Origin: a virus
IMG/VR virus record: IMGVR_UViG_3300012920_000375
Span: 1-20,120 of that record
DNA length: 20,120 nt
Direction: 5' to 3' (one strand)
The first letter of the stretch is position 1, and the number at the start of each line of letters is the position of its first letter. Below, in pieces: positions 929 to 18,280 of the stretch. Position numbers and translations under genes: made by a program. The notes under the pieces were generated by a model, which saw only the letters and a list, made by a program, of their open reading frames with translations, was not told the DNA's origin and made no database searches.

Positions 929-958
929 ATTATGATGTTGCATCACATAGTATGTCAA
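929..958 (-). promoter_or_regulatory. Sigma70-like promoter of the 204-896 unit
   Basis: On the minus strand there is a perfect TTGACA (-35, plus-strand 953-958), an 18-base spacer and CATAAT (-10, plus-strand 929-934). An A-run lies just upstream of the -35, as in an UP element. A 15-bp inverted repeat (932-946) sits in the spacer and touches the -10 box. Confidence 0.7.
932..946. promoter_or_regulatory. Operator-like inverted repeat, copy 1
   Basis: ATGATGTTGCATCAC on the plus strand is an imperfect member of the ATGAT-N5-ATCAT family: one arm is ATGAT and the other ATCAC. It lies between -35 and -10, where a bound repressor would block RNA polymerase. Similar sites lie at 2991-3005 and 3837-3851. 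Confidence 0.55.
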
Positions 959-1104
959 GCAATTTTTTCTTAATGCCTGAGTTTTTTACATAAGGGTTTC
1001 TGTACGAAAAAATAAAAAAGTTTTTTTTTATTTCAAATTTGGTGTGACGAGTGTAAAAGTGTGACGAAAACTACTGAGTTGCCCAGACAACGAGGTTTCC
1101 AGCC

Positions 1105-1224
1105 CGTAACGTTTTTTTGCATTTCGTAACGTTTGTAACACTTCTTTATATATAAACTCATCGCATTTCCCATTTGATTTAACAAATGTTAGCTTTCCAC
1201 AAATCATCCGTAACGTTTGTAACA
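1105..1224. repeat. Direct repeats CGTAACGTTTGTAACA before the small terminase gene
   Basis: Two identical 16-base copies lie at 1125-1140 and 1209-1224, 84 bases apart. A 10-base partial copy lies at 1105-1114 and a looser relative (CGTAACGAGCGTAAAC) near 1272. Each full copy contains GTAAC-type words in tandem at 9-base spacing and an AACGTT palindrome. The last copy ends 14 bases before the terminase start. They may be sites for a regulator or for small-terminase binding (pac-type sites are often near this gene); neither is shown by the sequence. Confidence 0.6.
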
Positions 1225-1238
1225 GGTAACCCATACTC

Positions 1239-1775
1239 ATGAATGAGAAAGTTGTTTCCAAAATAGAAGAGCGTAACGAGCGTAAACTGACTAATCGTCA
1301 ACGTGAATTTGCTAAATATTTCGTAGAGGGCATTTATTCAAATGCCGAGTGTGCAAGAAAGGCAGGATTTTCTCCGACAGTTGCTCACATCCAAGCGTCT
1401 AAATTAATTAACGGCAGAGATTTTCCGCATGTTTTGGATTACATAAAGGAACTGCGAGAAGAAAGAGAGCGCCGTTATGGAGTGACGTTGGTTGGGCAAA
1501 TGAAGCGACTCGATGAACTTTCGAGAGCGGCAGAGGATGCTGGGCAGTATTCAGCCGCGATTAACGCTGAAAAGATTCGTTCCGCTCTTGGTGGTCTGAC
1601 TATTGATAGAAGAGAGACTATTAATAAATTGGATGACATGTCTCGCACAGAAATAGTTGCTAGGTTGGCGGATCTTCAAAAGCGATATCCTGCGGCTTTC
1701 ATTGAGGGAGAGTTCAAAGATGTCACGGGGACCCGAGGCGAACTTTTGGAACATAGTCCGGAAGAATCTGCCTAA
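1239..1775 (+). CDS. terS: Terminase small subunit (DNA recognition)
   Basis: This protein would recognise phage DNA and bring it to the large subunit for packaging. Residues 17-57 (LTNRQREFAKYF, then a segment with SNAECARKAGFS and a following helix) form the helix-turn-helix region typical of phage small terminases. A charged helical stretch (about 65-120) fits the oligomerisation region, and 178 residues is a normal length. The ATG at 1239 has only a weak upstream AGG; no better start exists in frame. The end of the gene overlaps the start of the nuclease gene by 56 bases. It is unusual in lying more than 5 kb from the large subunit, with unrelated genes on both strands between them. Confidence 0.8.
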   Translation: MNEKVVSKIEERNERKLTNRQREFAKYFVEGIYSNAECARKAGFSPTVAHIQASKLINGRDFPHVLDYIKELREERERRYGVTLVGQMKRLDELSRAAEDAGQYSAAINAEKIRSALGGLTIDRRETINKLDDMSRTEIVARLADLQKRYPAAFIEGEFKDVTGTRGELLEHSPEESA

Positions 1776-2157
1776 AGGCAGTCAAGCTTGGCGTTTAGAA
1801 AATCGTGTTGCGGCAGGCATGCCTGATTGTTATTTGATGATTAGTGGTCATCCATTGTGGATTGAGCTAAAAGTAACAAAATCTAATAGTATTAAACTAT
1901 CGCCACAGCAAATCGCTTGGCATACCGCTCATAGCCACGTAGGAGGTCATAGTTTGATCTTAGTAAAGAGGTCCTCGACGGGAGTGCTATTTTTATTTGA
2001 GGGCCGTGATGCTCGGGACATTGCCTCTCAGGGCCTACTTTCGGAGCCTATTTTTTCGGGTGTCGGGGTTCGGGACGCAATAGACGCGGCCATTGATTCG
2101 GTTCGGGGTCATTTCGGGGCTTTATTCGGGTCGGGTTCGGTTCGGGGCTATAAATAG
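1720..2157 (+). CDS. PD-(D/E)XK nuclease, VRR-NUC / resolvase-like
   Basis: A small nuclease, 145 residues, probably acting on branched or linear phage DNA during replication or packaging. The core motif is visible: Glu28, Pro35-Asp36, then 12 residues on Glu49-Leu-Lys51, followed by LSPQQ (60-64). This is the arrangement of VRR-NUC and phage Holliday-junction-type nucleases. I chose the ATG at 1720 because GGGAG precedes it by nine bases; an upstream in-frame start would only add a tail read through the terminase gene. It is probably co-transcribed and translationally linked with terS. The last 45 codons are oddly packed with TCGGG words and encode a Gly/Ser-rich tail (FGSGSVRGYK) beyond the nuclease fold. 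Confidence 0.75.
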   Translation: MSRGPEANFWNIVRKNLPKGSQAWRLENRVAAGMPDCYLMISGHPLWIELKVTKSNSIKLSPQQIAWHTAHSHVGGHSLILVKRSSTGVLFLFEGRDARDIASQGLLSEPIFSGVGVRDAIDAAIDSVRGHFGALFGSGSVRGYK

Positions 2158-2160
2158 AAA

Positions 2161-2176
2161 CCCCCGCGAACGGGGG
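2161..2176. terminator. Strong GC hairpin after the nuclease gene
   Basis: CCCCCG, loop CGAA, CGGGGG: a perfect 6-bp stem starting four bases after the nuclease stop. There is no T-run on the plus-strand side, so it may terminate weakly or protect the 3' end of the message. Read on the minus strand it is followed by TTTCTATTT. Confidence 0.5.
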
Positions 2177-2183
2177 TGTGGGT

Positions 2184-2201
2184 AGTAGTTGGAGGACTAC
2201 T
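2184..2201. repeat. Hairpin AGTAGT-TGGAGG-ACTACT
   Basis: Perfect 6-bp inverted repeat with a six-base loop that contains a ribosome-binding-site-like GGAGG. GGAGGACTA also occurs as the real leader of the genes starting at 896 (minus) and 4090 (plus), but no start codon follows here. Confidence 0.4.
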
Positions 2202-2218
2202 GAAACGGATTATCGGTG

Positions 2219-2242
2219 AAAAAGGCCCTATTGTCTAGGGCC
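2219..2242 (-). terminator. Rho-independent terminator of the GP88 gene
   Basis: On the minus strand GGCCCTA, loop GACAA, TAGGGCC is followed directly by TTTTTC. It is a 7-bp perfect stem with a U-run, eight bases beyond the stop at 2251, between convergent genes. Confidence 0.8.
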
Positions 2243-2250
2243 GAGGTTTG

Positions 2251-2964
2251 TTATGCGGCGGCTATTAGTTCCGGATTGTCGATAATGAAAGGCGACTTGG
2301 ACCGTTTCGCTTCGTGGCCTTTAACGCGTAAACCGATGACACTGTCGATTTGTTCGAGGTTCGCGATATCTGAAACATCGCCATCATATACCGGGCGGCC
2401 TAGAAACTTGGTAGGCAAGCCGCCGCGGAATACTGCGGTGATTGGTACGCGGTGGTTTAGTGCCCGGTTTACTTGATTTGCGAATCCTGGGGCCTTTGAG
2501 TAGCTAAACATTAGCCGGTAGTTCTTTGGTGTCTTGCCGAGTCGTGCCGGTAATTTGGTGTAGTCATACGAAAACAAGGCGCGGAATTCATCCGCGAAAT
2601 CAATATAGTTTTCCCAAGGGATATCGGAAAGAACATTTAACCGCGTGACCGGTACGACGTTTTGACGGTCACATAGTTTTATAAAGTTACGTAGCTCTTT
2701 CTTAAGCTGGACTAAAAATCCGTCTCGGTCTAAATGCCAGAATGCGGAACGTGCGGTTCGTCCGTCGATAACGTTACGCATAACGCCGCGCCCGCTCGAG
2801 CGCAAACAATCCGCCGCGCATTCTGCAAGATTACGCGCCGGGCACAGTATGTTATCCGGCATTAGTGACAAGGAAAGTATGCGGATTTTAGAACCGCCTA
2901 CTAGACTCTTTTCTGATTTCGCGACTTTGGTGTTCGTCGCGTCGATGCTAGATAGTCTCTGCAT
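2251..2964 (-). CDS. GP88-family phage protein (function unknown)
   Basis: I recognise the pattern of the 'gene product 88' family of phages and mobile elements. Residues 26-36 (KIRILSLSLMP) lead into a cysteine block at C41, C49 and C53 followed by SSGRG. Next come RLNVLSDIPWE (108-118), YDYTK (133-137), LGKTPKNYRLMFSYS (about 142-156) and GRPVYDGDVSD (189-199). The family has no proven function that I know of; the conserved cysteines could bind metal. I chose the ATG at 2964 over an in-frame TTG at 2982 because GGAG lies nine bases before it. The gene stands alone, with its own promoter (2996-3024) and terminator (2219-2242), transcribed against the neighbouring nuclease. That is the layout of a self-contained cargo gene. 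Confidence 0.75.
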   Translation of the reverse strand: MQRLSSIDATNTKVAKSEKSLVGGSKIRILSLSLMPDNILCPARNLAECAADCLRSSGRGVMRNVIDGRTARSAFWHLDRDGFLVQLKKELRNFIKLCDRQNVVPVTRLNVLSDIPWENYIDFADEFRALFSYDYTKLPARLGKTPKNYRLMFSYSKAPGFANQVNRALNHRVPITAVFRGGLPTKFLGRPVYDGDVSDIANLEQIDSVIGLRVKGHEAKRSKSPFIIDNPELIAAA

Positions 2965-2990
2965 GGTTATAGTCTCCAACAATTAACCCA

Positions 2991-3005
2991 ATGATATTAC
3001 ATCAT
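2991..3005. promoter_or_regulatory. Operator-like inverted repeat, copy 2
   Basis: ATGATATTACATCAT: perfect 5-bp arms ATGAT/ATCAT with a 5-base centre. It overlaps the -10 box of the GP88 promoter. Confidence 0.6.
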
Positions 3006-3024
3006 ACTACATTATATAGTGCAA
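2996..3024 (-). promoter_or_regulatory. Sigma70-like promoter of the GP88 gene
   Basis: Minus strand: TTGCAC (plus-strand 3019-3024), 17-base spacer, TGTAAT (plus-strand 2996-3001), with AAAAAA just upstream of the -35. A perfect TATAAT also occurs on the minus strand at 3011-3016 and could be an alternative -10. Confidence 0.6.
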
Positions 3025-3032
3025 GCTTTTTT

Positions 3033-3115
3033 GGTTCGGGTTCGGGTCGGGTTCGGGGCCATATATTCTAAACACGCCAGGCCAGGCCGGGCCCGCCCGC
3101 CCACCCACCCACCCA
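3033..3115. repeat. G-tract plus CCCG/CCCA tract module, copy A
   Basis: The left part (3033-3057) is built of GGGTTC and GGGTCGGGTTC words, with four TCGGG. After an AT-rich spacer and a GCCAG tandem (about 3076-3086) comes a pure 4-base microsatellite at 3092-3115: CCCG twice, then CCCA four times. Four G3 runs with 2-3 base loops on the plus strand, and G3 runs with 1-base loops on the minus strand, both meet the usual G-quadruplex pattern. It sits directly upstream of the GP88 promoter. Confidence 0.85.
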
Positions 3116-3126
3116 ATACAGAAGCT

Positions 3127-3149
3127 AAAAAAAGGGGCCTTGCGGCCCC
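3127..3149 (-). terminator. Rho-independent terminator of the 3155-3805 operon
   Basis: Minus strand: GGGGCC, loop GCAA, GGCCCC, then seven T. Perfect 6-bp stem with a GNRA tetraloop, five bases beyond the stop codon of the last gene. Confidence 0.85.
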
Positions 3150-3154
3150 TGGTC

Positions 3155-3316
3155 TTATTTTAAGATATGCCTTAGTTCTTTAAGAACGCAGTGCTCTATC
3201 TCTTCATCTGTCGCGAGCGCTTCATCGCGCATTGCTTCAACAAATTCTCGAAGCTGGTCACACAACAGATTGGACTCGAGCTCTTGGATTTTCTGGTCTC
3301 CGCTTATGTCTCTCAT
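3155..3316 (-). CDS. Tiny acidic helical protein, 53 residues
   Basis: A 53-codon gene too short for common length cut-offs but well supported. Its ATG overlaps the stop of the upstream gene (ATGA at 3313-3316), GGAG stands six bases before it, and a terminator follows its TAA. The product (MRDISGDQKIQELESNLL...) is strongly charged, acidic and predicted helical throughout, with one Cys near residue 19 and one near 43. No family is recognised. It is the last gene of a three-gene minus-strand operon whose members are all small and acidic, which suggests early, regulatory or host-interfering proteins (inference only). Confidence 0.75.
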   Translation of the reverse strand: MRDISGDQKIQELESNLLCDQLREFVEAMRDEALATDEEIEHCVLKELRHILK

Positions 3317-3582
3317 AAACTCTCCGTGACGTAATTTATCTTTTCTGTCTGCACGCTACCTTGGAGCACCATATCTAATGGATCGATACACTGCTTAATA
3401 TAGTCCTTAATAACGTCCGGATGGACATCTGGATTTATCTCATCGGAACCGCGATGGTTTGCGATATCTTCTGCTGTAACTTCTTCCCCGTTAAATCCAT
3501 CGAGGTCTATATAGACCTCGAAGGTTAAAGAAACGGTGAATTCAGTGTGCGCCAATGGCGTGCCTTCTTCACTATTCTTCAT
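3313..3582 (-). CDS. Unknown acidic protein, 89 residues
   Basis: The ATG at 3582 follows GGAG by ten bases and overlaps the end of the upstream gene by 11 bases; a longer frame to 3651 has no ribosome binding site. The protein has alternating hydrophobic residues in FTVSLTFEVYIDLDGFNGEEVTAED (about residues 15-39, a likely beta hairpin). A helix rich in Asp and Ile (about 55-72) and a short beta-like C-terminus follow. This is reminiscent of small phage proteins of mixed alpha/beta fold. Family not recognised. It is the middle gene of the 3155-3805 operon. Confidence 0.75.
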   Translation of the reverse strand: MKNSEEGTPLAHTEFTVSLTFEVYIDLDGFNGEEVTAEDIANHRGSDEINPDVHPDVIKDYIKQCIDPLDMVLQGSVQTEKINYVTESL

Positions 3583-3805
3583 TGTGTAATAACTCCAACA
3601 GTTCGTTAATATGTTCAATGTCGCATCCACTAAATAATGAATCCTCAACATTCTCCAAAGTTTCTACCCAATCATCGACAATGTAATCGACCTCCATCTG
3701 GACATCTATTTCGTCTTTGATATCGCTAGACAATTCATCAAGTAGATTGCGTGCCTGACTAACAAGGTCATGGGCTTTTTTGATCTTTTCTAAATGTTCT
3801 TCCAT
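3572..3805 (-). CDS. Unknown acidic coiled-coil-like protein, 77 residues
   Basis: The ATG at 3805 has a strong GGAGG six bases upstream, so I prefer it to the in-frame ATG at 3838, which lies inside the promoter. The product (MEEHLEKIKKAHDLVSQARNLL...) is almost entirely helical, with heptad-like leucines in the first 30 residues. It has a very acidic second half (DYIVDDWVETLENVEDSLF) and a single Cys. Net charge is strongly negative. First gene of the three-gene operon. A function such as DNA mimicry or binding to a host protein would fit its size and charge but is speculation. Confidence 0.75.
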   Translation of the reverse strand: MEEHLEKIKKAHDLVSQARNLLDELSSDIKDEIDVQMEVDYIVDDWVETLENVEDSLFSGCDIEHINELLELLHNEE

Positions 3806-3829
3806 AGTTTTCCTCCAATTACCTTTTAC

Positions 3830-3857
3830 ATGATACATGATTCTGCATCATACGCAA
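3830..3857 (-). promoter_or_regulatory. Sigma70-like promoter of the 3155-3805 operon
   Basis: Minus strand: TTGCGT (plus-strand 3852-3857), 16-base spacer, TATCAT (plus-strand 3830-3835), with an A-run just upstream of the -35. Spacing and boxes are weaker than in the other two, but the same inverted repeat fills the spacer. Confidence 0.5.
3837..3851. promoter_or_regulatory. Operator-like inverted repeat, copy 3
   Basis: ATGATTCTGCATCAT: perfect 5-bp arms around a 5-base centre, lying between the -35 and -10 of the operon promoter. Confidence 0.6.
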
Positions 3858-3866
3858 CTATTTTTT

Positions 3867-3965
3867 GGGTCGGGTTCGGGTCGGGTTCGGGTCGGGTTCG
3901 GGGCATTTAAAAAGCTTGACACAGCACGGCCCGCCCGCCCGCCCGCCCGCCCACCCACCCACCCA
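3867..3965. repeat. G-tract plus CCCG/CCCA tract module, copy B
   Basis: Three exact tandem copies of GGGTCGGGTTC (3867-3899) end in GGGG. After a 26-base spacer comes a microsatellite at 3930-3965: CCCG five times, then CCCA four times. The order, spacing and wording match copy A at 3033-3115, but both parts are longer. It also lies directly upstream of a minus-strand promoter. Both strands can form G-quadruplexes by the usual sequence rule. Confidence 0.9.
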
Positions 3966-3987
3966 GGCATTTAGATACCTAGGACTG

Positions 3988-4015
3988 TTGATGCAATGCA
4001 CAAAACAACTAATAC
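3988..4015 (+). promoter_or_regulatory. Possible promoter of the 4090-5318 unit
   Basis: TTGATG (3988-3993), 16-base spacer, TAATAC (4010-4015). Moderate match only; it is divergent to the promoter at 3830-3857. Confidence 0.35.
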
Positions 4016-4017
4016 CA

Positions 4018-4039
4018 ATGTAGTATGACATTATGTGAT
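4018..4039. promoter_or_regulatory. Relative of the operator elements upstream of the 4090 gene
   Basis: Its first 11 bases (ATGTAGTATGA) are identical to the sequence running into operator copy 2, read on the minus strand. TATGTGATG (4033-4041) is shared with the minus strand at operator copy 1. The ATGAT/ATCAT arms themselves are degenerate. Confidence 0.35.
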
Positions 4040-4047
4040 GTTACCTG

Positions 4048-4071
4048 CTAAAATGACTTTAGTCATTTTAG
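4048..4071 (+). promoter_or_regulatory. Perfect 10-bp hairpin in the leader of the 4090 gene
   Basis: CTAAAATGAC, loop TTTA, GTCATTTTAG. It ends one base before the AAGGAGG ribosome binding site (4073-4079). It could be an RNA stem controlling translation or message stability, or a 24-bp DNA dyad bound by a protein. There is no T-run after it, so it is not a terminator. Confidence 0.6.
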
Positions 4072-4089: not shown

Positions 4090-4359
4090 ATGAGTAAAGC
4101 ACTTTTCAAAACACCTGTGCGAGTCTCGCGCCTGACCACCGTGGATCAGGTCGCGTGGCTCAGAGATTATGCGAAGTCGATTGATGCCGCGATCAAGGCC
4201 GCGCAACAGGCCGCTGTGGATGAAGGCCTCGCCGAATGGCAATTTTCAGACCGCGAGACCTCGCCGAATAAGGCCACGTTTATTCTTGAGTTTGGCGAGG
4301 CCAAATGGTCTCAAATGTGTACCCGTTCACAACGTAGAGATTGGAGGATTAAAAAATGA
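4090..4359 (+). CDS. Unknown 89-residue protein
   Basis: AAGGAGG lies ten bases before the ATG at 4090; a TTG six bases earlier is the less likely start. The N-terminal half (residues 15-50) is a helix rich in Ala, and the C-terminal half has short beta-like segments (KATFILEFGEAKW) before a basic end. It is more GC-rich in the third codon positions than the structural genes, which hints at a separate origin. It is the first of four plus-strand genes with good ribosome binding sites and one terminator. No family is recognised. Confidence 0.7.
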   Translation: MSKALFKTPVRVSRLTTVDQVAWLRDYAKSIDAAIKAAQQAAVDEGLAEWQFSDRETSPNKATFILEFGEAKWSQMCTRSQRRDWRIKK

Positions 4360-4616
4360 ATGAGTTACAGAAACTGCTGGATGGTATGGGTATCGCTGAT
4401 ACCCGTCGTTATCAAATCGAAAACGCGCTCGCCGCTTGTCATAGTGCGTTCGCGCCGCTTGATGACACCAACCGCGAGCTAGTCGTAGAGAAGCTACCGT
4501 TCTTGGCGCAGTGCGCCCGCTTCTATGGCTTACACTCCGTTGCGTGCAACACGTTCGAGAACGAAAACATCGTCATGCCCGACGATCCAATCAAAGAAAT
4601 CTTAGACAATCTGTAA
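4356..4616 (+). CDS. Unknown 86-residue protein
   Basis: Starts at an ATGA overlap with the previous gene (4356-4359) and has GGAGG eight bases upstream, so the two are translationally coupled. It is predicted to be mostly helical, with an Ala/Leu-rich centre and two cysteines in the middle plus one near residue 64. No membrane segment and no recognised family. Like its neighbour it is GC-rich in codon use. Confidence 0.7.
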   Translation: MNELQKLLDGMGIADTRRYQIENALAACHSAFAPLDDTNRELVVEKLPFLAQCARFYGLHSVACNTFENENIVMPDDPIKEILDNL

Positions 4617-4628
4617 AGGAGAAAGTAA

Positions 4629-4862
4629 ATGGAAACGCTTAGAAATAGAGTTGGATATACCCCCAAAGAAATGGTGCTTATGCAAGTAGTCGACACCTTG
4701 ACCGCGTTAGTCCAAGAGCCAGAAAGGGAATTGCCACATTCGGCTGAAATGACTGAGAAGGAAATAGCCCGCGCCAGAAAGTCTGCTGAAAGGCTAAGAC
4801 GTTCTCTGGCTGAAAAATGGGGCCTAGACATCACACCAATTGACGTACAGCAAAACGTGTAG
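4629..4862 (+). CDS. Unknown charged helical protein, 77 residues
   Basis: AGGAG stands seven bases before the ATG. The product is fully helical in appearance: a hydrophobic helix (about residues 12-29, PKEMVLMQVVDTLTALV) and then a long amphipathic Arg/Lys/Glu helix (about 40-64, with EKEIARARKSAERLRRSLA). This suggests a small coiled-coil or nucleic-acid-associated protein. No family is recognised. It is the third gene of the 4090-5318 unit. Confidence 0.65.
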   Translation: METLRNRVGYTPKEMVLMQVVDTLTALVQEPERELPHSAEMTEKEIARARKSAERLRRSLAEKWGLDITPIDVQQNV

Positions 4863-4883
4863 ATCCTTTAGAGGAGGTAGATC

Positions 4884-5318
4884 ATGAGTAAAAAAGCATT
4901 TGCGTTGACTGAGGAAACGCTCGAGTATGTACAGCCAAATGGCTTCTGTTTTCACGCGGTGCATTTGAGTTTGGGTGCGCCGTGGGCGAGAGGGCGTGAT
5001 CCGATCTCAGCCATTCGACATTGTACCTATAGATCTCCATCGCTGGTTGCCGTCGCGTACGGAAAATTTGGAGACTTAGAAACCACCGAGATGGCTACTT
5101 TTTCATGGGAGAAAACAGCACCATCTCCCGTTGGTGTTTTCGTTGTGACCTCTAGCAGTATCAAACCCTTTTCGAAAGATATACCTAAGAAATTGAGAGA
5201 CCAGTTACATGCCCATGAGTCTGATTACTCAGACCAATGGATTGACCGGTTCCACAAGAGGGTTGAGGAGTGGAGGGAGCGGGGCAGGCAACGGAGAAAA
5301 AAGAAACTAGCCAGTTAA
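4884..5318 (+). CDS. Unknown 144-residue protein with basic tail
   Basis: GAGGAGG lies seven bases before the ATG. The first 100 residues look like a mixed beta/alpha domain (FCFHAVHLSLGAPWARG, SLVAVAYGKFG, VGVFVVTSSS). The last 30 form a strongly basic helix (VEEWRERGRQRRKKK), which could contact nucleic acid. It is the last gene before the terminator at 5352-5385. No family is recognised. Confidence 0.7.
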   Translation: MSKKAFALTEETLEYVQPNGFCFHAVHLSLGAPWARGRDPISAIRHCTYRSPSLVAVAYGKFGDLETTEMATFSWEKTAPSPVGVFVVTSSSIKPFSKDIPKKLRDQLHAHESDYSDQWIDRFHKRVEEWRERGRQRRKKKLAS

Positions 5319-5909: not shown

Positions 5910-7120
5910 GACTGAACCCTTTCGCACCGAATGATAACCCGATGGATCAAGTTCTTTTCTGCTTTGGTAGTGGAGAGGAGACTGGTGGTGGTTCCGCTGG
6001 TGACTTTGACGATACCGTCAGACTTTCAGGAGACGATAGACCGAAGTATGAATCTGAAATAGAAAAGGCCGCTAAAAGCATTGCTGGAGGTGACAATTAC
6101 GAGAACGTGTTTGCGAATAATCCGGCGGCTTTTGCTGAACTTGAGAAAAGGTTAGCAGAACCGACGGGACGACCGGCATTTACAGACGCTCTTCCTGATA
6201 TGGCTTCAGGCAAAAACATAGGTGATAATCAATCAGCACCCGTGAATATCAAATCTTTAGTGTCAGAGCCTGACCGTCAAGCATTGATAAATACAGAAGA
6301 TAGAGTCTTAGAAATGCTGGAAAGGCAGAAGTTGGCTCGAGATCCTGACGTTGGAGAACCCACTCGACCTCCATCATCTGACAACTTAGATGATGGTGAT
6401 CTCGATACACCTGACGTTGATATTTTTGACACGGCCTTTACAGGTGGTGCCACTCCTGCGGACCAGATTATTGAGCAGGCTCGAAATCCTGATTTCTATG
6501 TTGGTGATTTGGACCCTTCGGGTCAAGGTCCTGATTTTTTGGTTGGTCCTAAAGTTACTCCTGAAATTGACCTAGAGATACAAAAACAAGCTGGAAAAGG
6601 CCCAAGAGATGAAGGCCTAGGTGCGTTGCTTAAACCGGGCGGTATTGTTAAAAATATTTTCGAGGACTTAACAAACAGAAACGCGGCCTTTGCGCGTGAG
6701 GTGCAAAGACCCGGTAACCGGTTTCAGAGAGATGCTGAAGGCACTATAACTGGTGTTTACAACCCTCAGTCGAATGCTGTCTTTACTCCAGGAAACGTAG
6801 GTCTTTTTGATTTAAAAGGTCAGGAAAGGGCCGCGGGCGATTTGTATGACATGCAACGTGCCGAGCAAGAAAGGCGTATGGGACGTGCCGGGGATGATCA
6901 GCCTGTAGTAGCATCAACCGCTCCCATGACACCGGAGGCGGTAACTCCAGAAGAGGTAGCTCAAGGTTTTCCAATCACTGCTCCGGGTGCCATACCTCCG
7001 TTTTTTGGACCGTATAGTCCGGCAACGCAGTACACGGGAATTGCAGGGCTACCTCAGTTTACGTTACAACCGACATATACCGCGCCGACAATGTTTTCTC
7101 CGCTGTATAACATTGGTTGA
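5906..7120 (+). CDS. Unknown acidic, Pro/Gly-rich protein, 404 residues
   Basis: The ATG at 5906 overlaps the stop of the acyltransferase gene (ATGA), so translation of the two is probably coupled; a TTG 12 bases earlier is less likely. The first 200 residues are very acidic and look disordered (many Asp, Gly, Pro and Ser). Then comes LLKPGGIVKNIFEDLTNRN (about 243-261). The C-terminal 60 residues are Pro/aromatic-rich (FPITAPGAIPPFFGPYSP). Low-complexity proteins of this kind just before the large terminase are common in marine phages, but I know no function. By position it could be a virion or head-assembly protein, and it is the nearest candidate substrate for the acyltransferase (inference). 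Confidence 0.65.
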   Translation: MRLNPFAPNDNPMDQVLFCFGSGEETGGGSAGDFDDTVRLSGDDRPKYESEIEKAAKSIAGGDNYENVFANNPAAFAELEKRLAEPTGRPAFTDALPDMASGKNIGDNQSAPVNIKSLVSEPDRQALINTEDRVLEMLERQKLARDPDVGEPTRPPSSDNLDDGDLDTPDVDIFDTAFTGGATPADQIIEQARNPDFYVGDLDPSGQGPDFLVGPKVTPEIDLEIQKQAGKGPRDEGLGALLKPGGIVKNIFEDLTNRNAAFAREVQRPGNRFQRDAEGTITGVYNPQSNAVFTPGNVGLFDLKGQERAAGDLYDMQRAEQERRMGRAGDDQPVVASTAPMTPEAVTPEEVAQGFPITAPGAIPPFFGPYSPATQYTGIAGLPQFTLQPTYTAPTMFSPLYNIG

Positions 7121-8589
7121 TGAACACAGCCGCACTTGAAGTACTTCCAGAAGAGGTTCTCAAAGAGATCCTTGCGCTAAAAGAGGCAGAAATACGTCTC
7201 GCGACCCGCGAAAAAGCTCAAGAAGAGTTCATGCCATTCGTGCATCATGTCTATCAGAACTTTATTGAGGGCCGTCATCACCGGATTATTGCTGAAAAAC
7301 TAGAGAGAATAGCGCGTGGAGAGCTAAAAAGGCTGATTGTGAACATGCCACCGCGTCATTCTAAGTCAGAATTTGCGTCATACCTCATGCCAGCGTGGTT
7401 TTTGGGCCGAAATCCCAAGCTAAAGATCATTCAGGCCACTCATAACACCGAACTAGCGGTCAGATTTGGTCGAAAAGTACGAGATTTGATGGGATCAGAC
7501 GAGTATCGTGATGTTTTTCCACAAACCATGTTAAAAGCTGATGATAAAGCGGCTGGTCGGTGGGGCACAGAAGCCGGTGGTGAGTATTTTGCCGCTGGTG
7601 TGGGTGCGGCGGTCACTGGTCGTGGCGCAGATTTGTTTATTATTGATGATCCGCACTCAGAACAGGACGCTTTGAGTGAGTCGGCGTTTGATAACGCCTA
7701 TGAGTGGTACACATCTGGTCCTCGTCAGCGTTTGCAACCAGGCGGAGCGATCATTTTGGTCATGACGCGGTGGGGAATCAAGGATTTGACGGGCCGTTTA
7801 CTCAGGGCACAGGGCGATGATGTCATGAGTGACGAGTGGGAAGTCGTTGAGTTCCCTGCAATCATGCCGTCAGACAATCCGTTATGGCCTGAGTTCTGGA
7901 ACAAAGAGGATTTGTTGAAGGTCAAGGCCGCGTTGCCGCTTGCCAAGTGGAATGCTCAGTGGCAACAGAACCCGGTGGCCTCAGAAGGCGCAATAGTTAA
8001 GAAAGAGTGGTGGAATCTTTGGGAAAAAGAGGAGATCCCGCCGGTCTCTTACATTATGCAGAGCTATGACACGGCATTTTCTAAAAAAGAGACGGCTGAC
8101 TACTCGGCAATCACCACCTGGGGCATCTTTCAACCTGAAGAGGGCGGTGCAGACCACATTATCCTGCTAGATGCTCGAAAAGGCCGTTGGAACTTCCCGG
8201 AACTCAAAGAAATTGCGCTTGAAGAGCATGATTATTGGGAACCGGACATGGTTTTGATTGAAGCAAAGGCTACGGGCACGCCGCTAACCGACGAATTACG
8301 CAGGACAGGAATACCTGTTGTGAATTATACTCCGTCAAAAGGCCGTGATAAGGTGACTCGAATGCATATGGTCGCTCCAATGTTTGAAGCAGGCATGGTG
8401 TGGGCACCTGAGAAGAAATTTGCCGAAGAAGTCATTGACGAGTGTGCGGCATTTCCGATGGGAGATTACGATGACCTTGTTGACAGCATGACGATGGCGT
8501 TGATTCGCTTTCGACAGGGTGGGTTCATCTCGCTGGACGGCGAAGATGACGAAGAAGACTACATTTCGACAGCGAGAGAGTATTATTGA
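7120..8589 (+). CDS. terL: Terminase large subunit (packaging ATPase and nuclease)
   Basis: This is the motor that pumps DNA into the prohead and cuts it. The N-terminal ATPase shows a Walker A variant NMPPRHSKS (about residues 75-83), a Walker B ADLFIIDD (170-177) and a motif near ILVMTRWG (212-219). The C-terminal RNase H-like nuclease shows Asp317 in QSYDTAF, Glu381 in LIEAKATG and Asp455 in DDLVDSM. Length 489 is normal, and all key residues are present. The ATG at 7120 shares one base with the previous stop. It is separated from terS by more than 5 kb, but followed directly by the portal region as usual. Confidence 0.95.
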   Translation: MNTAALEVLPEEVLKEILALKEAEIRLATREKAQEEFMPFVHHVYQNFIEGRHHRIIAEKLERIARGELKRLIVNMPPRHSKSEFASYLMPAWFLGRNPKLKIIQATHNTELAVRFGRKVRDLMGSDEYRDVFPQTMLKADDKAAGRWGTEAGGEYFAAGVGAAVTGRGADLFIIDDPHSEQDALSESAFDNAYEWYTSGPRQRLQPGGAIILVMTRWGIKDLTGRLLRAQGDDVMSDEWEVVEFPAIMPSDNPLWPEFWNKEDLLKVKAALPLAKWNAQWQQNPVASEGAIVKKEWWNLWEKEEIPPVSYIMQSYDTAFSKKETADYSAITTWGIFQPEEGGADHIILLDARKGRWNFPELKEIALEEHDYWEPDMVLIEAKATGTPLTDELRRTGIPVVNYTPSKGRDKVTRMHMVAPMFEAGMVWAPEKKFAEEVIDECAAFPMGDYDDLVDSMTMALIRFRQGGFISLDGEDDEEDYISTAREYY

Positions 8590-9074: not shown

Positions 9075-11512
9075 TGTCAGTTCCCTCAAATATGATGCAA
9101 GGTATGGTTGATGGCTCGATAGAAGCCGTTCCGGGTATGGAAGTTGACGTAGCACAACCAGAAAATTTTGAGGGTGGTGCACAAATAATTGATGATGGCG
9201 CGGGTGGCGCAATTATTCAGGCTCTTATGGAAGGAGAGACAGAAGTTGTCACAGAGCAATATAACCACAATGCAAATCTTGCTGAGATCCTTGATGACTC
9301 AATCTTGGGTGAAATTTCAAGCGACCTTAGAGCTAGATACGAAGAAGATCAAGATTCAAGGTCCGAGTGGGAAGACGGATATAGCAAAGGTCTCGACCTA
9401 CTCGGAGTCAAATACGAAGAAAGAAACAACCCGTTTGCTGGAGCCACTGGAGTAACGCATCCGCTGATTGCTGAATCAGTCACGCAGTTTCAGGCTCAGG
9501 CATACAAAGAACTGTTACCTTCAGGCGGTCCAGTTCGCACCGATATTATTGGCATGAAGTCTCCAGAAATCGAAGCGCAAGCTAATCGTGTCAAAGATTA
9601 CATGAACTATATGGTCACTGAGGTGATGGAAGAGTTTGATCCTGACACGGATCAGATGCTTTTCTACTTACCAATCAGTGGTTCTACCTTCAAAAAGGTT
9701 TACTTTGATGAAACTAAACAAAGACCTGTTTCTCGATTCGTCCCAGCAGAAGACTTGGTGGTCCCATACACCGCGACGGACTTGGCAACTGCCACGCGTG
9801 TTACGCATATTCTTCGCATGGACGAGAATCAAGTTCGTAAGTTACAGGTTGCTAATGTCTACCGAGATGTTGATTTACTTGCTGACTATGAAGGCGGCGA
9901 GGACACGATTAAGTCAAAAGTTGACGAACTGGATGGGCGAGAAAGAACAGAAACGGACGAGGTCCTGACAGTTCTTGAGTTTCATGTTGATCTAGATATT
10001 GAAGGTTTTGAGGACAGAGGAACGGATGGAGAGCCGACTGGTATCAAGCTCCCTTATATCGTTACTTTGGATTTGGGCAGTGGTGAGATTTTATCCATCC
10101 GTCGCAACTATGCAGAAGCAGATCCTCTGAAGCGTAAGCAACAATACTTTGTGCATTACAAGTTTCTTCCGGGGCTAGGTTTCTACGGTTTTGGTTTACT
10201 TCACATGATTGGTGGTTTAGGTAAAGCCGCGACCAGTATTCTCCGTCAGTTGATTGACGCGGGTACTTTGTCTAATTTGCCTGCTGGATTTAAGGCGCGT
10301 GGAATCCGTGTCCGTAATCAGGACGAGCCCTTGGCTCCCGGAGAGTTTAGAGACATTGATGCTCCCGGAGGAGACATTCGGAATTCTATTATTCCATTAC
10401 CTTATAAAGAACCGTCAGGAACTCTCGCTCAGTTATTAGGCGTTTTGGTTGAGTCAGGTCGTCGATTTGTATCGATTGCTGATCAACAGACAGGAAGTCC
10501 GGGCTCACAACAACAACCTGTTGGCACAACTATTGCGTTGTTAGAACGCGGTATGAAGGTAATGAGTGCAATTCACAAGCGGTTGCACTACGCGCAGAAG
10601 ATAGAGTTTCGTTTGCTAGCTACGTTAATTCGTGACTATCTACCGCAAAACTATCCGTATCAAGTTGTTGGAGGCGACGCATCTGTGATGCAGTCAGACT
10701 TTGACAATCGAGTTGATGTTCTGCCGGTATCAGATCCAAACATCTTTTCAATGGCACAGCGAGTGACTTTGGCACAAAACCAATTACAGCTAGCCCAGTC
10801 AAATCCACAAATGCACAATTTACACGCCGCGTACAAGCGTATGTATCAAGCATTAGAGGTGCAGAATATTGATGAGATTTTGCCCCCACCACCAGAGCCG
10901 CAACCTACAGATCCAGGGATTGAGAACGCTCGTGCATTGGCTGGTCAGATTATTACGGTGTTTCAAGAACAGGATCATGATGCACACATGGCGGTTCATA
11001 TTCAGTTTATGAAGTTACCCATTGTTCAGACTTCGCCACAGTCGTACGGCATGTTTCTAGCGCACATTCAGGAACACATTGCATTCAAGGCGCGTGGTAT
11101 TGTGCAACAGGAGATGCAACAACAAATGATGCAGATTCAAAGTCTGGCACAAGTTGGCGCATTAACACCTGAACAGGCACAGATGGCTCAGATTCAATCT
11201 TCTCCTGAAGGAATCGAGGCTCGAGTTGCACAAGTTGAAGCAGAACTCAATGCACAAATTCTTCAACAGTTAATGCCACAAGGTGATCAACAGGATCCGC
11301 TCGTAGCAATTCGACAGCAAGAACTCGCTATAAGGGCGGCGGATGTTGAACGTCGTGCTAAACTTGATGAAGCAGAACTTCAGTTAGAACAACAAAAACT
11401 GATGCAAAGAGCGGTAACTGATGCCGCTAGAATCGAGTCTCAGGAAGAAATAGCGGCAGAAAGGGCGGACGTAAATCGTGAACGCATAGAAGCACAGCAG
11501 AATAGAGGATAG
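9074..11512 (+). CDS. Portal protein, P22-like
   Basis: The dodecameric head-vertex channel through which DNA enters and leaves. At 812 residues it is of the long, podovirus (P22-like) type. Residues 119-150 (NPFAGATGVTHPLIAESV...AYKELLPSGGPV) are the hallmark segment near the start of such portals. The central region (about 160-560) has the alternating strands and helices of the wing and stem, including LPYKEPSGTLAQLLG and QQTGSPGSQQQPVGTT. The last 200 residues are a Gln-rich, coiled-coil barrel-like extension. The start codon shares one base with the previous stop. This long C-terminal barrel is what P22-type portals use to control headful packaging. Confidence 0.9.
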   Translation: MSVPSNMMQGMVDGSIEAVPGMEVDVAQPENFEGGAQIIDDGAGGAIIQALMEGETEVVTEQYNHNANLAEILDDSILGEISSDLRARYEEDQDSRSEWEDGYSKGLDLLGVKYEERNNPFAGATGVTHPLIAESVTQFQAQAYKELLPSGGPVRTDIIGMKSPEIEAQANRVKDYMNYMVTEVMEEFDPDTDQMLFYLPISGSTFKKVYFDETKQRPVSRFVPAEDLVVPYTATDLATATRVTHILRMDENQVRKLQVANVYRDVDLLADYEGGEDTIKSKVDELDGRERTETDEVLTVLEFHVDLDIEGFEDRGTDGEPTGIKLPYIVTLDLGSGEILSIRRNYAEADPLKRKQQYFVHYKFLPGLGFYGFGLLHMIGGLGKAATSILRQLIDAGTLSNLPAGFKARGIRVRNQDEPLAPGEFRDIDAPGGDIRNSIIPLPYKEPSGTLAQLLGVLVESGRRFVSIADQQTGSPGSQQQPVGTTIALLERGMKVMSAIHKRLHYAQKIEFRLLATLIRDYLPQNYPYQVVGGDASVMQSDFDNRVDVLPVSDPNIFSMAQRVTLAQNQLQLAQSNPQMHNLHAAYKRMYQALEVQNIDEILPPPPEPQPTDPGIENARALAGQIITVFQEQDHDAHMAVHIQFMKLPIVQTSPQSYGMFLAHIQEHIAFKARGIVQQEMQQQMMQIQSLAQVGALTPEQAQMAQIQSSPEGIEARVAQVEAELNAQILQQLMPQGDQQDPLVAIRQQELAIRAADVERRAKLDEAELQLEQQKLMQRAVTDAARIESQEEIAAERADVNRERIEAQQNRG

Positions 11513-13228: not shown

Positions 13229-13914
13229 TGTCATATCTGATTAGCAACATCCCGTATTTTAAATGCTGGGTGCGGAAAGAGTTTACTTGCAATCACGATG
13301 ACTACCACGGAGAGTATCTCCATGCTTTAGCCATCGCAGTTAATACGATCCCAGACAGGTCGCTAAGTTTCCAGGTTGTATTTACAGGCCAGGAAAGACA
13401 CTTAGAAGATAGTGATGAGAATCGTCATGGTGGTGCGATGTGGGCCCGCATGCCTATACAAGCACTGGTCGCTGATGTAGAAACAGAGACCGACGAGTGG
13501 CCTGAACGTATGGAAGACCACATCTGCCAACCGTGGGATTGTGAATCTAGACATCACGAAGTCATTGTCATAGATCGAGTCAGTTCAAGTCCTTGGATTG
13601 CCAAGGTGAATCATGAGTTCTACGAAGCACGGTATATATTCACGGTGGATTACACGGACCATGAGATTGCTGACTCACCGGATCAACACAAACAAAGCCA
13701 TGTCTTATATTTAACTGAGGGCCCTTGGGAGGGCAACGTTATTGCTTTGCCAAATAACAGAGTCAGGGCAACGTCACCCGCACTTTGGGATACGGGTGAA
13801 GGGGCTCCTGATTTTAAACCAAGTCAGTACACACACTCAGCAGAGGGTCACTCTAGTTACACTGACCCCAACATAACGTTTGACAACCTGTATTCTGAAG
13901 GCATAGAAGACTGA
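13228..13914 (+). CDS. Conserved phage protein of unknown function, 228 residues
   Basis: The ATG at 13228 shares one base with the previous stop. The sequence (MSYLISNIPYFKCWVRKEFT..., GGAMWARMPIQALV, QPWDCESRHHEV, HKQSHVLYLTEGPWEGNVIALPNNRVRATSPALW) is strongly patterned. I recognise it as a widespread protein in the portal-to-capsid interval of marine tailed phages. It is soluble, aromatic and acidic, with many His and Trp residues and no membrane segment. No function is established that I know of. Its constant position in the head-gene cluster suggests a head-assembly or virion role. Confidence 0.8.
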   Translation: MSYLISNIPYFKCWVRKEFTCNHDDYHGEYLHALAIAVNTIPDRSLSFQVVFTGQERHLEDSDENRHGGAMWARMPIQALVADVETETDEWPERMEDHICQPWDCESRHHEVIVIDRVSSSPWIAKVNHEFYEARYIFTVDYTDHEIADSPDQHKQSHVLYLTEGPWEGNVIALPNNRVRATSPALWDTGEGAPDFKPSQYTHSAEGHSSYTDPNITFDNLYSEGIED

Positions 13915-17797: not shown

Positions 17798-18280
17798 ATG
17801 GCATCGACTACTTTTTCAGGTCCGGTTACGGCGACTAATGGTTTTATCACCGGTTCAGGTTCTCTTGTAAGTGTAACCGCAGACGTTACTTTGACTTCTG
17901 CATCACATGCGGGTCGGACAATGGTGTTTGACATAGCCTCTGGAGCTACAGTTACTCTTCCGGCGGCTTCAGGCACAGGAAATGTTTACAAGTTTTTTGT
18001 AAAAACGACTGTCACATCCAACAGTTATAAAATCCAAGTCGCTAACGCTAACGACACTATGGCTGGTTTAGCTATCGTATCTAATGACGAATCTGCAACC
18101 GCAGATATTTTTGCGACAGGCGCGACTTCAGACACCATCACTATGAACGGTACTACAACAGGAGGGATACTTGGTGCTACGGTTGAAATTCAAGACGTTG
18201 CGTCAAACGTGTTCTCAGTTCTTACGCGGAGTGAAGCGTCAGGCTCAGAAGCTACACCATTCTCTGCGGCAGTATCGTGA
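17798..18280 (+). CDS. Beta-rich structural protein, 160 residues
   Basis: The ATG at 17798 follows AAGAGGT by seven bases; an in-frame GTG 18 bases earlier is less likely. The protein is Thr/Ser/Ala/Gly-rich with regularly alternating hydrophobic residues (VTADVTLTSASHAGRT, ATVTLPAASGTGNVYKFFV, DTITMNGTTTGG). This is the look of a beta-sandwich or fibre-like virion protein. Similar proteins follow the capsid gene in marine phages and may be head fibres or decoration. It is the first gene after the double terminator. Confidence 0.7.
   Translation: MASTTFSGPVTATNGFITGSGSLVSVTADVTLTSASHAGRTMVFDIASGATVTLPAASGTGNVYKFFVKTTVTSNSYKIQVANANDTMAGLAIVSNDESATADIFATGATSDTITMNGTTTGGILGATVEIQDVASNVFSVLTRSEASGSEATPFSAAVS

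Follow-up and report, generated by a model that had tools for sequence, protein, structure and literature searches.

The Arc repressor of phage P22 is a small phage protein of the ribbon-helix-helix family (which also includes CopG, MetJ, RelB, and AmrZ), and acts through neighboring operator sub-sites that cover a promoter, exerting negative feedback on the operon that encodes it; it is known from a single divergent control region in a temperate phage. In Aca8-type control in the archaeal rudiviruses, one regulatory sequence serves numerous small, uncharacterized early genes within a genome, related viruses carry virus-specific versions of the sequence, and repression by a virus protein has been proposed; these viruses have archaeal promoters, a winged-HTH Aca protein, and linkage to anti-CRISPR genes (PMC11065993). 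The genomes of Cluster A mycobacteriophages contain many copies of a repressor site (operators and stoperators), with site and repressor varying between lineages; the sites are asymmetric, also occur away from promoters, and stop elongation, and the phages are temperate (PMC9283540, PMC6550527). For marine phages of the HTVC023P/027P type, the passages searched in papers on HTVC027P transcription and HTVC023P-type genomes mention neither a promoter nor a phage repressor.

The DNA analyzed here (20,120 nucleotides, termed the window) is a 20.1-kb fragment of a marine bacterial virus related to this type, and four dispersed accessory units within it almost certainly belong to one regulon. As for Arc, the candidate regulator is a small phage protein, predicted here to be strand-helix-helix, the operator is composed of adjacent sub-sites over a promoter, and negative feedback on the regulator's own operon is proposed; unlike Arc, binding is predicted at four or more accessory promoters, and the parts of these phages that are visible show no sign of lysogeny. 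As in the rudiviruses, one sequence is common to many small genes of unknown function and takes different versions in relatives, although the promoters are of a bacterial host type. Unlike the Cluster A sites, those of the window are palindromic and confined to promoters.

Shared Operator in Four Promoters

An initial annotation of this DNA had described three minus-strand promoters (P1–P3) with a common order, in which a 15-bp ATGAT-N5-ATCAT inverted repeat lies across the spacer between -35 and -10. The promoter boxes (consensus matches, as distinct from mapped transcript starts) and the quality of the arms, perfect in two copies with one mismatch in the third, are as described, but the repeat does not keep a constant place: at P3 it occupies the spacer, at P1 it straddles the boundary between spacer and -10, and at P2 it lies over the -10 (Table 1). 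Nor does it define the motif, although its perfect form is above chance (two copies in the window, 0.01 expected per shuffle, and two copies in 0 of 100 shuffles). The perfect form is too strict, missing P4, and with up to two mismatches allowed the count falls to chance level (15 found vs. 11 expected). A better unit is a palindromic 19-mer, ATGTAACAT-C-ATGTTACAT, made of 9-bp boxes joined by one G/C, and each promoter carries two or three boxes at a 10-bp period. The plus-strand site, formerly regarded as degenerate and placed at 4018-4041, proves to be a full three-box member composed of two overlapping 19-mers (ATGTAGTAT-G-ACATTATGT-G-ATGTTACCT), and its layout is repeated in a related contig (L220, retrieved by terminase alone) at 6029-6057.

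Table 1. Promoters, operators, and gene units of the window.
Feature	Position	Strand	Details
P1 promoter	-35 953-958; -10 929-934	minus	TTGACA; CATAAT; consensus match
P1 operator	935-953	minus	ATACTATGTGATGCAACAT; between -35 and -10; M1 19.3, rank 2 in window
P1 15-bp repeat	932-946		one mismatch; spacer into -10
P1 operon, first gene	204-896	minus	230 aa
P1 operon, next ORF	1-193	minus	cut by contig end
P2 promoter	-35 3019-3024; -10 2996-3001	minus	TTGCAC; TGTAAT; consensus match
P2 operator	2994-3012	minus	ATGTAGTATGATGTAATAT; overlaps spacer and -10; M1 22.3, best in window
P2 15-bp repeat	2991-3005		perfect; covers -10
P2-driven gene	2251-2964	minus	GP88 family (PF17338), Pfam E 6.5e-24
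P3 promoter	-35 3852-3857; -10 3830-3835	minus	TTGCGT; TATCAT; consensus match
P3 operator	3830-3848	minus	ATGCAGAATCATGTATCAT; overlaps spacer and -10; M1 17.2
P3 15-bp repeat	3837-3851		perfect; fills spacer
P3 unit	3155-3805	minus	ORFs 3572-3805, 3313-3582 (start 3597 also possible), 3155-3316
P4 operator	4018-4046	plus	19-mers 4018-4036 (M1 17.6), 4028-4046 (M1 16.9)
P4 possible promoter	-35 4025-4030; -10 4049-4054	plus	ATGACA; TAAAAT
Inverted repeat after P4 operator	4048-4071	plus	perfect, 11-bp arms
P4 unit	4090-5318	plus	ORFs 4090-4359, 4356-4616, 4629-4862, 4884-5318

A motif model (M1) was trained on the promoters of two related contigs, G003 and G004, only, with the window sites excluded. 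Across the whole window, its top five matches are exactly the four promoters (935, 2994, 3830, and 4018/4028), after which the score falls from 16.9 to 9.8; five matches reach at least 15, compared with 0.08 in shuffles. When genome and gene class were held out together, each site ranked 1st to 5th among ∼20,100 positions (2 for P1, then 1, 5, and 4/5), and local shuffles of 80 nt gave p values of about 0.0005–0.001. The site is repeated across promoters of this single genome at a frequency well beyond chance, and the proposal that one regulator serves all four units is strongly supported by an externally trained motif that picks out exactly these promoters in 20 kb. Stoperator-type control of the Cluster A kind was set aside, as no site of the window scoring at least 15 lies outside the four promoters. 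The sites overlap core promoter elements in all four units, and the register relative to the -35 differs (+7, +9, +13, and +16), which argues that the site is distinct from the promoter elements themselves even though the core promoter is always overlapped.

Distribution Among Related Phages

The initial annotation's expectation of conservation upstream of orthologous genes is borne out in three other phages (G003, G004, and L220), where this first operator type recurs at orthologous units. The P1 operator is found in the orthologous promoters of all three, as is the P3 element, and in L220 the ortholog of ORF 3155-3316 sits behind a P3-type promoter. Sites absent from training were also recovered: one in G003 (at 9687) precedes the ortholog of ORF 5484, and all five promoter sites of L220 were new to the model. 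A sister clade (G001, G002, G006, and G016) carries a different palindrome, CACAAnTAnTTGTG, in place of the first site in the promoters of orthologous genes, and these promoters, equally AT-rich, score below 11 on the first-site model. Sites of the first type are restricted to accessory promoters in a few related phages. Contig G005 has a ribbon-helix-helix protein (see below) like that of G004, yet its one visible unit promoter scores only 1.9. Gene calls in the relatives are simple ORF calls, and two contigs are excluded from the conclusions: G009, whose joined sequence contains a one-base error at a seam, and L122, which was found by DNA pattern and viewed as bare sequence.

Candidate Regulators

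In the relatives, the operon that begins with the P1-type site ends with an Arc/CopG-like ribbon-helix-helix gene. This gene occurs within the first-gene-promoter operon in G004, L220, G006, G007, G016, and G017, and this phage-encoded candidate is present in every contig that reaches far enough. In G004 (3300022074_000362) it spans 17969-18127 on the minus strand, and for L220/L225 it is located at 1939-2142 on the plus strand of L225. The predicted protein is small (52–67 aa), with 78–97% identity within the clade carrying the second palindrome and 38–45% between clades. In the AlphaFold model (pLDDT 75), an extended N-terminus is followed by helices at residues 21–34 and 38–50, with no strand assigned in the monomer. 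Nearly all Foldseek matches are ribbon-helix-helix proteins, with Arc, CdbA, AmrZ, and CopG foremost (probability at most 0.97, E at least 0.19), and the match to Pfam RHH_5 (E 2.3e-4) has 21.3 bits, below the curated cut-off of 26. The AlphaFold and Foldseek results are consistent with a strand-helix-helix fold. The predicted DNA-facing residues are near-identical between clades (Phe/Thr/Ala vs. Tyr/Thr/Ala) despite the different operators. RelB, a ribbon-helix-helix repressor, reads hexads of the form [A/T]TGT[A/C]A (PMC2812701), which ATGTAA in the phage boxes resembles, and the arrangement of the operator as adjacent sub-sites is of the Arc/CopG type, to which protein dimers may bind box by box. 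A peptide search with the G004 protein recovered only itself, the alignment of the family was too variable for use as a query, and 50,697 phage records gave no match.

The window itself contains no regulator gene, as noted previously, but this absence is attributable to the end of the contig, since the P1 operon runs off position 1. For the same reason, the window and G003 both ending before the regulator gene, regulator and first-type operators are seen together only in G004 and L220. As judged from gene order in these relatives, the best candidate for the repressor gene of the window phage would lie just beyond the sequenced piece.

Other DNA-binding proteins were ranked lower. An AlpA/HTH_17 gene, located between primase and helicase, is found in every genome extending to the replication genes; its product is 76–81% identical between G004 and the second clade, with the recognition helix (APSTIYRW) unchanged in phages that have two different operators. 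A second HTH ORF of G004 has no counterpart in several second-clade contigs or in L220, whose operators match those of G004.

Proposed Mechanism and Alternatives

The explanation that we favor, with somewhat more confidence than doubt, is that a repressor encoded by the phage turns off a number of accessory units together with its own operon. Each unit has a host-type (sigma-70-like) promoter whose -35, spacer, and -10 region is overlapped by the boxes, and a phage-encoded repressor on the site would block RNA polymerase. The units would be expressed immediately after the phage enters its host and would fall silent while the repressor builds up, a delayed negative feedback comparable to that of Arc or Cro. 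Dimers may sit side by side on adjacent boxes, and two-box and three-box sites would therefore differ in strength. Because all sites overlap core promoter elements, they fit repression, to which we give good confidence. The identity of the repressor, left previously as phage or host, is narrowed here to the ribbon-helix-helix protein as lead candidate, a reasonably probable assignment. The case for autoregulation is clear in the window's lineage alone, since the first-gene promoter of the second clade carries only a weak site (12.3, and 3.8 in G017).

Control borrowed from the host, with the two site types corresponding to regulators of two hosts, is unlikely: the lack of a regulator gene in the window would fit it, and host range may vary from phage to phage (one member falls in a Maricaulis MAG bin), but the confinement of the sites to a small set of related phages, and there to accessory promoters, and the phage-encoded candidate found wherever contigs extend far enough, argue against it. 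We give a similarly low likelihood to regulation by a different phage protein, either an operon protein of unknown fold or the AlpA/HTH_17 protein; the latter's occurrence in every genome reaching the replication genes is in its favor, whereas its invariant recognition helix, and the patchy presence of the second HTH ORF, do not follow the change of operator.

Activation in place of repression is less likely still. Several boxes are imperfect (TGTAAT, TTGCGT), and ribbon-helix-helix proteins such as AmrZ are capable of both activation and repression (PMC3325190), but the variable registers are easier to reconcile with occlusion than with an activator making a fixed contact. That the likeness merely reflects common ancestry of the promoters or AT-rich composition, with no regulator at all, can for practical purposes be regarded as refuted: although the P1 and P2 promoters are orthologous among the compared phages, the double hold-out ranks, the local shuffles, and the low scores of the equally AT-rich sister-clade promoters all speak against it.

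Under the favored repressor, marine phages related to the HTVC023P/027P type gain a regulator amenable to testing along with a delimited regulon, and the promoter site alone can flag co-regulated small genes of unknown function, as with the anti-defense genes of archaeal viruses. With one site type exchanged for another in front of the same genes, the two clades provide a natural example of co-evolution between repressor and operator. A more tentative, and on balance doubtful, extension is that exchangeable repressor-operator specificity groups control scattered early genes of host takeover or anti-defense, with the operators of a genome (at four or more promoters) switching jointly with the ribbon-helix-helix repressor. 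If so, co-infecting relatives of the same group would silence each other's early genes, and the genes of other groups would be unaffected.

Additional Observations

The protein of ORF 204-896 has no Pfam or PHROG match; viral contigs searched with this single protein yielded nothing, whereas an alignment-based search with its family succeeded. Single site matches occur in L032, L042, L107, and L137; the L032 match (at 312), upstream of an ORF, may represent an additional member, and that in L107 resembles coding sequence. The perfect inverted repeat directly after the P4 operator (CTAAAATGACT-TT-AGTCATTTTAG) has counterparts in the same place in L220 (CTAAAGTGGC-TTT-GCCACTTTAG) and G003 (CTACTGTGGC-TTTAAT-GCCACAGTAG).

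A Putative Palindromic Operator in the Accessory Promoters

The window, complete as a record, is a fragment of 20,120 bases (46% GC) that carries TerS, TerL and structural genes, and its four promoters P1-P4 (P1-P3 on the minus strand, P4 on the plus strand) belong to small accessory units surrounding TerS, upstream of TerL. The initial annotation had described an ATGAT-N5-ATCAT inverted repeat in P1-P3, and its -35/-10 coordinates are correct, as are its two perfect copies (0.01 expected; 0 of 100 shuffles had two) and a third with one mismatch; with two mismatches permitted, the repeat occurs at chance level in the window. The elements were said to follow the same order in all three promoters, but the position of the 15-bp repeat differs from one to the next.

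A 19-bp model, ATGTAACAT-C-ATGTTACAT, was obtained by running a purpose-written palindromic EM script on two other phage contigs, G003 (IMG/VR 3300025653_000442) and G004 (3300022074_000362), at the promoters of their orthologous units, the window sequence being excluded. Of the several widths compared, 19 was the cleanest, and three of the four window promoters also came out on top at widths 15 and 17. Over all window positions, the five best matches (scores 22.3 to 16.9) lie in P1-P4, and the sixth scores only 9.8; shuffled windows contain a mean of 0.08 matches scoring at least 15 (maximum 2), and 80-nt shuffles, promoter by promoter, give p ~0.0005-0.001. P1 and P2 have orthologs among the training promoters, and for this reason a double hold-out was run, with both the window and the entire gene class left out of training; P1 then ranks 2, P2 1, P3 5 and P4 4/5 among ~20,100 positions. 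These first-type sites can be read, from their sequence, as 9-bp boxes with one G or C between them and a period of 10; P4 has three boxes, and therefore its site is not degenerate, as its arms had been called.

Coordinates of genes, sites and repeats in the window and in related phage contigs
Feature	Contig	Position	Remarks
TerS	window	1239-1775	Pfam Terminase_2
TerL	window	7117-8589	52-62% identity to phages 023Pt_psg01, DSL-LC04, HTVC027P, HTVC023P
ORF	window	2251-2964	GP88 family, PF17338
ATGAT-N5-ATCAT, perfect	window	2991-3005, 3837-3851	
ATGAT-N5-ATCAT, one mismatch	window	932-946	
Five best 19-bp sites	window	2994 (P2), 935 (P1), 4018 (P4), 3830 (P3), 4028 (P4)	
First-type site	G003	9687	precedes ORF-5484 ortholog; absent from training
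First-type site	L032	312-330	single, score 18.2, ahead of ORF
Perfect inverted repeat after P4-type operator	window	4048-4071	
Same	L220	~6058-6080	
Same	G003	~10840-10866 (minus)	
G/C-rich simple repeats	window	2093-2152, 3027-3060, 3861-3904; 3083-3115, 3925-3965	
Hairpins after -10	G003	~11086-11100	
Same	G004	~24350-24380	
Replication/SNF2-like divergent promoter	G004	13493-13583	

Distribution in Related Phages

The proposed shared element recurs in relatives ahead of orthologous genes, first-type sites being found in G003 (five), G004 (three) and L220. The last, with L225, is a 27.8-kb contig (NZMJ01000079.1) found in another collection by terminase similarity only, whose first 15.6 kb hold five sites, each ahead of a matching unit and including a three-box P4-type site. 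L220 and G004 are near relatives (96% for the first-gene protein), which means that the P1-type site of L220 cannot count as an independent case, but at its P3- and P4-type sites the sequence is different. The G003 TerS is 77% identical to that of the window vs 78-82% to the sister clade, and its core genes are no nearer to the window than to that clade, and the shared site therefore needs more than close kinship to account for it. Elsewhere in 2.27 Mb of loci (many redundant, L220 not among them), matches scoring at least 15 occur only in L032, L042, L107 and L137. The L032 site (IMGVR 3300030372_004227) adjoins the same CCCGAA and GGGTGGGC repeats, which suggests a further phage with the first-type operator. 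The L220/L225 contig sits in a Maricaulis MAG bin, which points only weakly to the host because viral-contig binning is unreliable.

In G001, G002, G006, G016, G017 and others, promoters of orthologous genes lack the first-type site and carry CACAAnTAnTTGTG instead (best form CATAACTAGTTATG), usually immediately before a TATTAT -10. The first-type model scores 15.7-22.8 on its own promoters and at most 10.9 on the other clade; the second-type model scores 12.3-19.3 on promoters of the second clade, the first-gene promoter of G017 (3.8) excepted, and at most 9.7 on first-type promoters. The scores are thus nearly mutually exclusive.

Candidate Regulator and Proposed Mechanism

No repressor gene is visible in the window, as first reported, and we add that the contig end at position 1 cuts the P1 operon. 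In G004, L220, G006, G007, G016 and G017, the P1-type operon extends ~ten or more genes to a 52-67 aa protein with a ribbon-helix-helix pattern (Pfam RHH_5, E 2.3e-4, below cut-off). Its AlphaFold model (pLDDT 75) has an extended N-terminus followed by two helices, and nearly all of its Foldseek neighbours are ribbon-helix-helix proteins, Arc, a repressor of that fold, being first among them, although the E-values, for such a short chain, are weak. Within the second-type clade the proteins are 78-97% identical to one another; the G004 protein is 38-45% identical to them. Across the same divide, an HTH_17/AlpA protein whose gene lies between those for primase and helicase keeps 76-81% identity and an unchanged recognition helix; G004 also has a second HTH ORF, which is absent from L220. 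The candidate is therefore the only recognized DNA-binding protein whose sequence tracks operator type. Counting against it, the predicted DNA-facing residues, which we assign by analogy with Arc and CopG, are almost alike between clades (Phe/Thr/Ala, Tyr/Thr/Ala), and in G005, which has a similar protein, the single unit promoter visible carries no site.

The shared sites overlie the core promoters, at variable registers, and are conserved as a set; judged from sequence, the candidate repressor would occlude RNA polymerase. From their host-type promoters we infer that the accessory genes are early; their delayed shut-off would come from having the repressor gene at the far end of one of the operons it targets. 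Control appears limited to accessory units, because the divergent promoter of the G004 replication genes has no match scoring at least 15.

Many-operator phage repressors, ribbon-helix-helix repressors and virus-specific early-gene control sequences are each already known, respectively from cluster A mycobacteriophages (PMC9283540, PMC6550527), from Arc, RelB, with hexads [A/T]TGT[A/C]A (PMC2812701), and AmrZ (PMC3325190), and from PMC11065993. The passages searched on HTVC027P transcription and HTVC023P-type genomes describe no such regulon for the phages to which the window belongs.

Adjacent Repeats and Hairpins

Directly after the P4-type operator, three phages have a perfect inverted repeat whose arms change on both sides with pairing kept (CTAAAATGACT/AGTCATTTTAG, CTAAAGTGGC/GCCACTTTAG, CTACTGTGGC/GCCACAGTAG); should the proposed -10 be correct, the P4 repeat would span -10 to +10 and hence not lie wholly in RNA. 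After the -10 of several units, including those of G002 and G016, there are hairpins such as GTCGGGCAATTCCGCCCG or GTCGGGCATTTGCCCG, likely 5'-leader hairpins of mRNAs. Just upstream of the P2 and P3 A-run (minus strand) is (CCCGAA/CCCGAC)n, with (CCCGCC/CCCACC)n behind; in second-clade phages this position is occupied by another repeat, GGGCCGCAGG, which makes the G/C-rich repeat lineage-specific as well. The replication operon and an SNF2-like helicase gene diverge from a promoter region found at the same place in G004, G005, G006, G007, G016 and G017; this region is alike in both operator clades (TGTTGCAT...CGATACATTA.CATA), has a strong site of neither type, and is perhaps a separate control region.
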